This document shows, piece after piece, positions 3,622 to 28,087 of a stretch of DNA of 33,449 bases. This DNA comes from a virus. The position numbers were made by a program, and so were the translations under genes. The stretch lies in the IMG/VR virus record IMGVR_UViG_3300010233_000020, positions 1 to 33,449 of that record. The stretch is one strand, 5' to 3'. Under the pieces are notes generated by a model. It was given only the letters and a program-made list of their open reading frames with translations. It ran no database searches and was not told the DNA's origin. Position 1 is the stretch's first letter; the number at the start of each line of letters is the position of its first letter.

Positions 3622-3645
3622 TGACAAAACCACGTCCAGAAACAC

Positions 3646-3681
3646 AAGAGGGAGCAGAAATGGAATCTGGCTCCCTCTTTT
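3646..3681. terminator. Bidirectional terminator
   Basis: AAGAGGGAGC (3646-3655) and GCTCCCTCTT (3670-3679) form a perfect 10-bp stem with a 14-base loop, followed on the plus strand by TTTT and on the minus strand by TTGTG. It separates the plus unit ending at 3621 from the minus array ending at 3704. Confidence 0.85.
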
Positions 3682-3910: not shown

Positions 3911-3927
3911 TGATTCATTCTCCTGAT

Positions 3928-3998
3928 TACGGGCGGGGAGAATTGAACTCCCGTCATCAGTTTGGAAAACTGACACTCTACCATTGAGCTACACCCGC
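3928..3998 (-). tRNA. tRNA-Gly (anticodon UCC)
   Basis: A complete 71-base cloverleaf: acceptor GCGGGTG/CGCCCGT (one G-U at each end region), D arm GCTC-AATGGTA-GAGT, anticodon arm TCAGT-TTTCCAA-ACTGA giving anticodon TCC, short variable loop TGAC, T arm GGGAG-TTCAATT-CTCCC, discriminator A. CCA is not encoded. It reads GGA, the favoured glycine codon of this DNA. It sits inside the minus-strand operon between 4004 and 3910, so it is probably excised from an mRNA. Confidence 0.95.
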
Positions 3999-4003
3999 AT
4001 GAC

Positions 4004-18387: not shown

Positions 18388-19533
18388 ATGAACAACATGC
18401 GTAAAGTAACATTCCAATACAGAGTTTACCCGACAAAGGCACAGGAAACCATCCTGAATGCCCAACTGGAGGAATGTCGTTGGCTATACAATCACTTCCT
18501 CGCTGAAAAGAAAAAGGAATGGAGGAAATCCAAAAAATCATTGAGTGCCTACGACTTAATGAACACACTCCCTGCTCTCAAGAAGGAACGAGAGACCTTA
18601 CAGATCGTCAATGCTCAAGCGTTAACTAATGTTGCTATTCGTGTTGACCTCGCATTTCAGGCATTCTTCCGAAGATGGAGAAACGGGGAGAAACCTGGAT
18701 ATCCAAGATTTAAGAGCTTCCATCGTTACCGAAGCATAACATTCCCTCAAGTAATCCACCGATGCTACATTCGTGATGGAATGCTCCGTGTGTCGAAAGT
18801 AGGTGATGTCAAGATCATCCTTCATCGTCCGTTGGAAGGGAATCCCAAGACTGTCACGTTGAAAAAATCAACAACGGGCAAGTGGTATGTAACTTTTGTA
18901 TGTGAATTGAACGATCCCAAACCATTAAAAAAGAGCAAGAATCAAATCGGAATTGATATAGGATTGTGTTCTTTCGCTGCTCTATCCAACGGCGAAAAGA
19001 TTGCTAATCCTCGCTTCTTCAAACGGGATGAAAAGGAACTGGCCAGAGTGCAGCGACTTTTCAGTAAGGAGGCAAAAGGTACCACAGAAAGAATCAAGCG
19101 GAGAAAACCTGTTGCCCGCGTTCATGAGAGGATCGAATTCAGACGTAAAGACTTCGCTCACCAACAGTCTCGGAGGATTGTCAATGCATACGGATTCATC
19201 GCTGTAGAGGATTTGGAAGTTAATCGGATGATTGAAACTAGAAAATTCTCAAAATCTATCAGCGATGCTTCATGGGCCATTTTCTTCACTCTCCTGCTCT
19301 ACAAAGCTGCAAACGCTGGTAGAACTATCGTGAGAGTGAATCCCGCTTACACCAGTCAGACGTGTTCTAGCTGTGGGCATCGTCAAAAGATGCCGCTGGA
19401 CAAGAGGAAGTATGTCTGTCTTGAGTGCAAGCTGTCTCTCAATAGAGACGTGAATGCTGCAATCAACATTCTTACCTTGGGATTACAAGGTAGCCGTAAA
19501 ATCGGGAAAGCTCCTACGCAAGTAGGGGAGTAA
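18388..19533 (+). CDS. tnpB: TnpB RNA-guided endonuclease (IS200/IS605 type)
   Basis: A 381-residue, apparently intact TnpB. The RuvC triad is complete: D190 (GIDIGLCSFA), E274 (IAVEDLEVNRM), D354 (LNRDVNAAINI). The zinc ribbon is C326-x2-C329 and C344-x2-C347. The N-terminal helix-turn-helix-like start (KVTFQYRVYPTKAQE) and the 'HERIEFRRKDFAHQ' arginine-rich helix are typical. Family knowledge: TnpB uses an omega RNA from its own 3' end to cut DNA next to a short TAM. No tnpA transposase is present, so the element is a standalone tnpB or depends on a host TnpA. I start at 18388; upstream TTG starts would lie in the left end. TTGAC at 18362-18366 is a plausible TAM. Confidence 0.93.
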   Translation: MNNMRKVTFQYRVYPTKAQETILNAQLEECRWLYNHFLAEKKKEWRKSKKSLSAYDLMNTLPALKKERETLQIVNAQALTNVAIRVDLAFQAFFRRWRNGEKPGYPRFKSFHRYRSITFPQVIHRCYIRDGMLRVSKVGDVKIILHRPLEGNPKTVTLKKSTTGKWYVTFVCELNDPKPLKKSKNQIGIDIGLCSFAALSNGEKIANPRFFKRDEKELARVQRLFSKEAKGTTERIKRRKPVARVHERIEFRRKDFAHQQSRRIVNAYGFIAVEDLEVNRMIETRKFSKSISDASWAIFFTLLLYKAANAGRTIVRVNPAYTSQTCSSCGHRQKMPLDKRKYVCLECKLSLNRDVNAAINILTLGLQGSRKIGKAPTQVGE

Positions 19534-23696: not shown

Positions 23697-24043
23697 TGAT
23701 TTCGTTCCTTCCATTCCTTGACAAATTGCAGGAGAGCAAAATTAGCTCCTGATTGGTCGTGGTCATATTCATCGTAGCTATCTGCATACTGTACCAGAGC
23801 ATCAAGGATTTGTTTGTTACCTGCTTCCATTCCTGCTTGATACGCTCCTGACTCGCTTTGACAGTCGGACAGGATTCCCTGCAACGCTTCGATTTCGTTG
23901 ATAAGTCTACGAATGGTACTTATGTCTGATTTCTTTTCCTCCTTTGCTGCCCTAGGTGTGACGTGCCAATTTTCGATAACTGAATCATCCCACTCCTCAA
24001 CGTCATTCTTGATCGGAGCGAGAATCTCAGATAGCGTTTTCAT
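23693..24043 (-). CDS. Repeated-family member
   Basis: A 116-residue protein: KTLSEILAPIKNDVEEWDDS ... ISTIRRLINEIEALQGILSD then CQSESGAYQAGMEAGNKQIL DALVQYADS. The C-terminus ends ALLQFVKEWKERNQ, matching the basic 'KEWKER' end of the neighbour at 22523. It is the first of the tandem four in transcription order and overlaps the TIGR02996 gene upstream by 17 bases, so both families are in one operon. Confidence 0.8.
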   Translation of the reverse strand: MKTLSEILAPIKNDVEEWDDSVIENWHVTPRAAKEEKKSDISTIRRLINEIEALQGILSDCQSESGAYQAGMEAGNKQILDALVQYADSYDEYDHDQSGANFALLQFVKEWKERNQ

Positions 24044-26151: not shown

Positions 26152-26444
26152 GATTCATCTCCTACCCAGTAACGAATAGCAGCGGAAGTATCTTTCGGAA
26201 AGCACAAGCGACCAGGGGGAGGCAGGGGAATATGTGAATGGGGTAAGGAATTCTCAAATGCCTGCAAAAGCTGACGCAGTTCTCTCCTCTCCCTGATCCA
26301 TTCTCGAAGAATCAGGGGACTATTAGCGAGAAGGAAATCCCTGTTACATCCCGTACACAACCACTCTGTCTTCCAGTCCTCAGTGAATACGCCTCCGGGG
26401 AATTCCTCTCCGAGACGCAAGCGATTGCAACAACAGCAATTCAT
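26148..26444 (-). CDS. Small HNH-like zinc protein, function unknown
   Basis: A 98-residue protein with NCCCCNRLRLGEEFPGG at its start and CTGCNRDF at about residues 30-37, two knuckles of one zinc site. The basic helix REWIRERRELRQLL and a proline-rich loop (LPHSHIPLPPPGR) follow. The layout resembles small treble-clef proteins, but the histidines of an HNH active site are not present. Both ends overlap neighbours by four bases. Confidence 0.75.
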   Translation of the reverse strand: MNCCCCNRLRLGEEFPGGVFTEDWKTEWLCTGCNRDFLLANSPLILREWIRERRELRQLLQAFENSLPHSHIPLPPPGRLCFPKDTSAAIRYWVGDES

Positions 26445-26686
26445 TTCTCTTCCCTCAGAACCTCATTGGGGACTTTGACAAATACAGAAATCTTCCCCTC
26501 TGGTAACATCACCTCCCCTAGCAATTCGTCCCGATCAATGAGGATTTCCCTGTTGTCCGAAGTGAATCCCAATCGAACCATCCCTCCTGCTCTATCCAGA
26601 AGAATGATATGTACTGTCTGCTCCTTGTCGGAGGGAGGGACTCGAATTGTGATACCCTCATTCTTGCGTCTGCGAAGGATCAGCAT
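26441..26686 (-). CDS. csrA: CsrA-family RNA-binding regulator
   Basis: An 81-residue CsrA homologue: LILRRRKNEGITIRVP at the N-terminus, VHIILLDRAGGMVRLGFTSD (about 25-44) and NREILIDRDELL (about 45-56). The first strand LILxRR and the NREI-x5-EL segment, which form the RNA-binding face in known CsrA, are conserved. CsrA dimers bind GGA motifs near ribosome sites and repress or activate translation. The tail (about 57-81) is longer than in Escherichia coli. GGAGGAATAATT precedes the ATG. It lies between two cysteine-rich proteins in one operon. Phage-borne CsrA could alter host translation; that is inference. Confidence 0.9.
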   Translation of the reverse strand: MLILRRRKNEGITIRVPPSDKEQTVHIILLDRAGGMVRLGFTSDNREILIDRDELLGEVMLPEGKISVFVKVPNEVLREEK

Positions 26687-26688
26687 AA

Positions 26689-26919
26689 TTATTCCTCCCT
26701 CTCATTTGGTCGCTTCCCGAATTCCTTCCGATCAATCATTTTCCTTGGTTGATTGGCGTTGAGACAACAGGAACAGTAGGGACGCTCCGCAATATGTCCG
26801 CAAACAAGGGGAGGAAGGTTCTTCAGACTGGAAGCAGGAGTCTGTCCCTTTGCGAGCAATTCACATCCACATCCCGCACAATTCATCATCTTCAAATCGA
26901 GATAATCAGTCTTTTTCAT
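26689..26919 (-). CDS. Small zinc-finger protein
   Basis: A 76-residue protein with CAGCGC (about residues 14-19), CGH around residue 40 and CSCC (about 49-52): enough ligands for one or two zinc ions. The end is basic then acidic (RKMIDRKEFGKRPNEREE). Not recognised. It is the first cistron of the operon that holds csrA and the deoxyribosyltransferase, and its start faces the hairpin-rich non-coding block. Confidence 0.75.
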   Translation of the reverse strand: MKKTDYLDLKMMNCAGCGCELLAKGQTPASSLKNLPPLVCGHIAERPYCSCCLNANQPRKMIDRKEFGKRPNEREE

Positions 26920-26969
26920 TCTGTTCCTTCTCTAAATGTGCTTGACAGGAAATGATCGAATAGCGTAAA

Positions 26970-27490
26970 ACGAAAAAGACGACAGATAGGAGACTTGACC
27001 TCGCTACCCGCCGTCCTTCTCGCACGAGAGTATTGTAGCTTCTACTTTCTCTCCCGTCTAGCAATAAACCAAACCTGTCAAGACCAGAAGCCGTCATCCT
27101 TGAACGGCAACAAAGCAATCCGAGCAAAAGGATTTTCAGGGAAACAGTAGTTGGCTGACTACGGCTCTGAAGCACTTCAGCACACTCCCACGCAACCCGA
27201 AAAGGCGTACATGAAGGGAGAGCAAGGATTGATAAACCCTGCAAATCGAAACGAACGATTGCTATTAGTTTCGATGAGGCGACATACCCTATGACGTATG
27301 TTTCTGGCAGTCCGTTTTGGCCACTTTGGCGGATGACTACACGCTCCCGTAACAGGGATGTCAGACGTTGTGCAAAGGTAATTCGAGAAAACAACGAAAA
27401 ACAATCATTCTCGATGGTGCAAGCGACCCGGCTCATACCACAAATCGCTAACCACTTTGTATGATACCCAATTCGTACAAAGTGGCTTTG
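26970..27490. ncRNA. Candidate large structured RNA
   Basis: This block has no credible gene but many local inverted repeats: 27090-27108 (GCCGT/ACGGC), 27117-27134 (AATCC/GGATT), 27147-27162 (GTAGT/ACTAC), 27167-27180 (CTGAA/TTCAG), 27185-27220 (CTCCC/GGGAG with inner ACGC/GCGT), 27245-27275 (ATCGAAAC/GTTTCGAT), 27282-27301 (ACATAC/GTATGT), 27345-27358 (TCCC/GGGA), 27383-27414 (TCGAGAA/TTCTCGA), 27452-27485 (CCACTTTGTA/TACAAAGTGG). Plus-strand loops are A-rich, and a TTGACA at 26942 could start a plus transcript; a TATTAT box near 27500 could start a minus one, so the strand is left open. Giant phage RNAs such as GOLLD or ROOL are the nearest known idea, but I recognise neither. The 217-codon minus frame here begins with GTG without a ribosome site and has unlike composition. 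Confidence 0.45.
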
Positions 27491-27628
27491 CTCACCTCTC
27501 ACCCACAATAATACATTTATTGTATTTCCACTCAAACAATACGTCACATTGCAAATCACGCTGGAAATCCCATCAATTGCAGGAATGGGACAGGGAATAG
27601 ATCATGTTGGAACAATGGGATGGTACGC

Positions 27629-28087
27629 TCATTTTCGCTTCCTCCTTTTGTTCCAGTGCTTCAATGAGGGAAGATTAGGTACTGAGGTACTCAATTTGTC
27701 CGCTTGTCCATTCTGCTCTCTCGGAATCCATTCGATACACCAATCATCAGACACAGTATCGAGAAATCCCTTGCATTCTCCGTTCAATTCAATCAAATGG
27801 GGTTTCCTCCCTCTCCACTTTCCAGAAACCATATTGACTACAAGCATACTATCTCCGAGACAGAGGAGAGGAATTACCATCTTCTCGTTGTAAAGAAAGC
27901 GAACACCAGCGAGCAAAGCATGAAATTCCGCTACATTGTTTGTTGCTTCTTCTCCTGAACAAGCTAATCCATTCCCCTCTCTGAATAGCTTTCCATCAGG
28001 AGAGAACAAACACCATCCATAGCAAGCATGACCTCCCGGATTTTTGGGGAGACAGGAACCATCAAAGTACAAAGTCCATCGCTTCAT
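27629..28087 (-). CDS. rnhA: Ribonuclease HI
   Basis: A 152-residue RNase HI. The four catalytic acids are in place: D9 (YFDGSC), E54 (NNVAEFHAL), D79 (LGDSMLV) and D130 (NGQADKLS). The 'NPGGxAxYGW' and 'WIPREQN' segments are typical; the basic handle loop is short. The enzyme removes the RNA strand of RNA-DNA hybrids, for instance primers during phage replication. It is transcribed toward the structured block and ends at 27629; palindrome copy A lies 19 bases upstream of its start. Basic C-terminal tail (KHWNKRRKRK). Confidence 0.92.
   Translation of the reverse strand: MKRWTLYFDGSCLPKNPGGHACYGWCLFSPDGKLFREGNGLACSGEEATNNVAEFHALLAGVRFLYNEKMVIPLLCLGDSMLVVNMVSGKWRGRKPHLIELNGECKGFLDTVSDDWCIEWIPREQNGQADKLSTSVPNLPSLKHWNKRRKRK

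Follow-up and report, generated by a model that had tools for sequence, protein, structure and literature searches.

A noncoding gap with structured ends and a strong terminator-like hairpin beside csrA in a deeply branching phage lineage

The window analysed here – bases 1–33449 of the 54,450-base IMG/VR virus record IMGVR_UViG_3300010233_000020 – carries a minus-strand block in the order RNase H-like gene (27629–28087), gap (26920–27628), 76-aa ORF (26689–26919) and csrA (26441–26686). Because a run of ten Ns follows directly after the window, at 33450–33459, the record is a scaffold. The large terminase subunit of the phage has at most about 31–34% identity to those of named phages and 43% identity to that of its nearest IMG/VR relative, G021; judged by sequence, the lineage is an orphan, deeply branching and remote from named or sequenced phages.

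Upstream of the gap, the RNase H-like gene matches phrog_531 (1.3e-11), RVT_3 (2.3e-10) and RNase_H (6.1e-6). The RVT_3 match represents the RNase H fold and the record holds no RVT_1 reverse transcriptase, so a retron was rejected. Downstream of the gap lie the cysteine-rich 76-aa ORF, for which family searches gave no match, and the csrA-like gene (PF02599, 1.7e-6). The original prediction had placed the element between csrA and RNase HI; both genes do flank it, but the 76-aa ORF separates the gap from csrA. Among 50 related records, csrA was found in two, both of them among the nearest relatives (G021, 23736–23879, PF02599 1.1e-22; G060, 53751–53930, PF02599 1.1e-12) and both with small ORFs preceding it; since these phages also carry it, csrA seems to be a recurrent gene of this lineage.

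The 709-base gap itself has no coding signal in any frame. With a model of codon usage trained on genes from the record itself, the 217-aa minus-strand ORF that spans much of it (26906–27559) scores -28, while every called gene is positive; all other ORFs within the gap are negative, and the neighbouring genes score between +9.6 and +23. When the best of six frames was taken in 150-base windows, 27151–27600 proved to be the lowest-scoring of five low-coding runs in the record. Stop-to-stop fragments of the gap matched nothing in Pfam or PHROGs, and tblastn against phage records and 2.4 Mb of related loci returned nothing convincing. Coding conservation had been named beforehand as the observation that would speak against an RNA; as far as codon usage, Pfam, PHROGs and tblastn can tell, there is none, and by these measures the gap is noncoding in all six frames. 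A protein-coding or decayed gene was rejected on the same grounds, all frames having a low codon score and no Pfam, PHROG or tblastn match. Another long gap in the record, of 786 bases, lies upstream of the primase gene (record 47968–48753; L002 14969–15754) and has a strong terminator-like hairpin at its end (48735, plus strand).

Small inverted repeats are abundant. The ten or more local repeats originally reported, with perfect stems of 10, 8, 7 and 6 bp, are indeed present when counted in the gap: one perfect stem of 10 bp (27452–27461/27476–27485), one of 8 bp (27245–27252/27268–27275), one of 7 bp (27383–27389/27408–27414) and five of 6 bp. There are 23 repeats with arms of at least five bases, against 11.9 ± 3.3 expected (a count reached by 0 of 200 dinucleotide shuffles), and those with arms of at least six number 8, against 3.0 ± 1.7 (reached by 3 of 200); for such repeats, a 591-base window within the gap ranks first of 181 across the record. 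The reported recurrence of CCACTTTG is genuine in that a second copy lies at 27321–27328, but it is at about chance level, one perfect 9-base complementary pair being expected per ~700 bases.

Folding of the region as a whole is significant (z -4.2 on the minus strand, -3.3 on the plus strand), and its energy over 590 nt falls within the top 5 of 180 record windows (third on the plus strand, fifth on the minus), not first; on both strands it is outranked by 1560–2149. That stretch, whose 590-nt folding energy is unsurpassed in the record on both strands, overlaps a weakly coding ORF (1581–2102) and adjoins a further gap at 980–1580. At the finer scale of 120-base windows (n=1808), 26941–27060 ranks third on the minus strand, and 27421–27540 ranks second on the plus strand and 28th on the minus.

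Divided by domain, the significant structure is confined to the two ends (27418–27493 and 26940–27083). The 5' domain, on the minus strand, consists of a 12-bp hairpin (27487–27476/27461–27450) followed by a second one (27449–27443/27428–27422), with pairing probabilities of 0.97 and 0.91, respectively; its z-score is -3.5 on the minus strand (4 of 1000 shuffles) and -5.6 on the plus (0 of 1000). The 3' domain reaches z -6.2 on the minus strand (0 of 500 shuffles) and -2.1 on the plus, and combines a closing helix, CUUGACAGG/CCUGUCAAG (27082–27074/26949–26941, predicted probability 0.97), with a small hairpin (27057–27024) and a 24-bp hairpin. Between the two, the part with the small repeats (27084–27417, some 330 bases) folds near chance on the minus strand, at z -1.6; on the plus strand its z-score is -2.3. 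Since the domain z-scores are strong at the ends and only -1.6 in the middle, the structure is real yet end-located: of the roughly 500-base structured RNA originally proposed, the local structure above chance stands, whereas folding throughout is not supported.

The 24-bp hairpin is the strongest element of the gap, although it was absent from the original prediction; a consensus scanner also missed it, probably because of its bulge. On the minus strand, 27023–26970 forms 20 uninterrupted base pairs and, after a one-base bulge, 4 more, enclosing a 5-base loop; 7 of the 24 pairs are G-U, and UUUUUCGUUUU, partly inside the stem itself, follows, the whole feature occupying 26962–27023. With G-U pairs allowed, no stem on either strand of the 54-kb record is longer than its 20-bp part (the next has 16 bp), and none of 300 shuffles of the region reaches 20. 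Among 193 terminator-like hairpins in the record, the 24-bp hairpin ranks first (-24.2 kcal/mol). Its z-score is -5.9 on the minus strand and -0.2 on the plus, which cannot form it because the G-U pairs turn into A-C. A stable stem directly followed by a U tract is what defines an intrinsic terminator, and this one looks like a very strong predicted example. It shares the G+C-rich stem, short loop and U tract of known intrinsic (rho-independent) terminators, all on the minus strand, but differs in being unusually long, with one bulge, and in its distance of 655 bases from the end of the nearest upstream gene, the RNase H-like one; in this phage, two further strong sites follow a gene end by 55 and 62 bases. 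The 76-aa ORF starts about 50 bases downstream, with no promoter-like site in the stretch between. If the hairpin works as a terminator, it settles that the RNA is a minus-strand one ending near 26962; the helix that closes the 3' domain extends past the U tract and would then form only in a read-through transcript. A bidirectional terminator-like hairpin was seen elsewhere in the window at 3644–3679 (AAGAGGGAGC...GCTCCCTCTT), near a tRNA-Gly gene (3927–3999).

At the other edge of the gap, two overlapping, weak sigma-70-like sites (27508–27547, minus strand; GTGACG-17-TACAAT and TTGAGT-16-TATTAT, each 9/12) have predicted starts at about 27512 and 27501; their ends, at 27519 and 27508, fall immediately beyond the 5' structured domain. 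An alternative site (27032–27060, minus strand; TAGACG-17-TACAAT, 9/12) would start at about 27025, the foot of the 24-bp hairpin. The 1.9-kb region holds five promoter-like sites, against 3.0 ± 1.8 in shuffles; as this number is within chance, the sites are no more than suggestive and the promoter is a putative one. A sigma-factor-like protein encoded at 40473–41000 of the record (L002 7474–8001; phrog_1740, 2.2e-4) might supply the phage with its own promoter class.

None of the known RNA classes was recognised. The original prediction had found no resemblance to GOLLD or ROOL, and scanning with Rfam models bore this out: there is no family match in the gap at the gathering threshold, and only chance matches appear with E up to 10 (mir-2238 at 3.9, SNORA58 at 10). 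ROOL, found in phages and prophages, is a large noncoding RNA that forms nanocage structures (PMC12286853); the gap resembles it as a large noncoding phage stretch, but has no Rfam match (E up to 10), no adjoining tRNA island and no highly folded middle. GOLLD is likewise a large phage RNA, with a conserved 3' region and many members longer than 800 nt (PMC12286853), whereas the candidate of ~540 nt is without a GOLLD match. The proximity of csrA had been taken to make RNA regulation plausible, and a noncoding stretch close to this gene is reminiscent of the CsrB/CsrC-type sponges that bind CsrA. GGA motifs, however, are not enriched on the minus strand of the gap; since there are 7 against 8.2 expected, the link to CsrA finds no support in binding sites, and a CsrB/C-type sponge RNA was rejected. 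Elsewhere in the window (18388–19533, plus strand) lies an intact-looking, stand-alone tnpB with Cas12f1-like TNB and OrfB_IS605 domains, in which candidate nuclease residues (D, E and D) can be picked out by eye; a promoter-like site precedes it (TTGACA-16-TAAAAT), no tnpA was recognised alongside, and the 3' end of the gene could bear an omega RNA.

No relative of the gap turned up in any of the collections searched. Blastn against phages and plasmids gave nothing beyond one short chance match, and IMG/VR scans with the RNase H, CsrA or terminase protein singly yielded no relatives; terminase alignments added 80 and 78 viral loci and four genome loci. Searching 69 terminase-sharing whole records with the gap produced short chance matches only, those in G016 and G002 being rejected as they lie inside long open reading frames. 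Covariance models built for each end domain from the single sequence, run over 1.13 Mb, matched only the window itself. Of three exact-pattern scans of IMG/VR, two returned single-motif chance matches with unrelated flanks and one returned none, and two sets of about 400 bacterial genomes (~800 in total) held no relative. The collections searched may leave out the records nearest to the window's own, and these null results do not extend to close relatives. No copy of the element can be recognised in the two csrA carriers, G021 and G060; in G021, the 191 nt of noncoding sequence that precede csrA fold unremarkably (z -1.1), and gaps upstream of csrA in related phages were rejected, as judged by eye they probably contain genes missed by crude calling (ThyX-like, phosphoesterase-like).

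Noncoding character, structured ends, the terminator-like hairpin and the strand on which it forms can be read from the DNA itself, and a hairpin that forms on only one strand speaks for transcription of the minus strand. From there we infer a promoter, a discrete transcript and any function in trans. We lean, with somewhat less than even confidence, towards an independent noncoding transcription unit of ~540 nt on the minus strand, with structured ends and a strong terminator, belonging to an orphan phage lineage. RNA polymerase would start near 27512–27501 and stop at the predicted, very strong intrinsic terminator (27023–26962); the product would carry two stable hairpins at its 5' end and fold loosely in the middle, and its two stable ends may shield it from exonucleases. 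Such an RNA would work in trans, its likeliest role being that of a regulatory or decoy RNA specific to the phage. In favour are the lack of coding signal, the strand-specific hairpin, its distance from the RNase H-like gene, the significant 5' domain and the two promoter-like sites at the 5' edge. Against it stand the weakness and near-chance number of the promoter matches, the lack of any homologue found, the middle without above-chance folding, a 5' hairpin slightly more significant on the plus strand, and a 3' closing helix that requires RNA past the terminator.

The hairpin could also serve the genes on either side. As a leader or attenuator of the 76-aa ORF and csrA, it would end transcripts coming from upstream or from the 27060–27032 promoter unless an alternative fold, for example the 27082–27074/26949–26941 helix, permitted read-through into csrA. 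Its place shortly before the ORF, with no promoter-like site intervening, speaks for a leader, as do a promoter-like site starting at its very foot and the confidently predicted closing helix; but inspection by eye, which was not systematic, found no convincing antiterminator pairing with the 5' arm of the terminator, and neither the missing copies in the two nearest csrA-bearing relatives nor the unremarkable stretch in G021 fits an attenuator; we consider this reading unlikely. Alternatively, the gap might be nothing but a long 3' UTR: an RNase H-like operon would run as far as the terminator, and the RNA would have no role of its own. The gene lies on the same strand and the hairpin is by far the strongest terminator-like one downstream of it, yet 655 bases greatly exceed the spacing at the two further strong sites and a structured 5' domain would be unneeded; we regard this as distinctly unlikely.

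A genuinely ornate large RNA that functions as ROOL or GOLLD do but is private to this phage lineage would agree with the size, phage location, noncoding nature, overall minus-strand z-score and excess of stems. Its middle at chance, a region energy that only reaches the top 5, and the want of an Rfam match, a homologue and an adjoining tRNA island make it very unlikely, and the energy profile gives no support for an RNA comparable to ROOL or GOLLD (PMC12286853), although folding energy, which ignores pseudoknots, is a weak test of ornate folding. That the gap is a remnant of a mobile element or of a gene that has decayed, functionless beyond its terminator, we consider highly improbable: so long a low-coding run is unusual in the record and no copy was found in the related phages checked, but none of its fragments is similar to a family or to anything in the 2.4 Mb of related sequence, and a 24-bp stem with seven G-U pairs is not explained by decay alone.

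To our knowledge, the large RNAs of phages are few and of unknown function. The independent unit favoured here might represent a new phage RNA class, noncoding, ~540 nt long and unrelated to ROOL or GOLLD; its end domains would be stable and its middle flexible, and a deeply branching lineage would carry it beside its own csrA and RNase H. We grant this reading little probability, and the set of ornate RNAs is not yet enlarged by this gap. As an orphan candidate of ~540 nt, from a lineage far from sequenced phages, it offers a concrete target for RNA-seq, and it indicates that gaps in phage genomes can harbour strongly terminated noncoding stretches invisible to family libraries.
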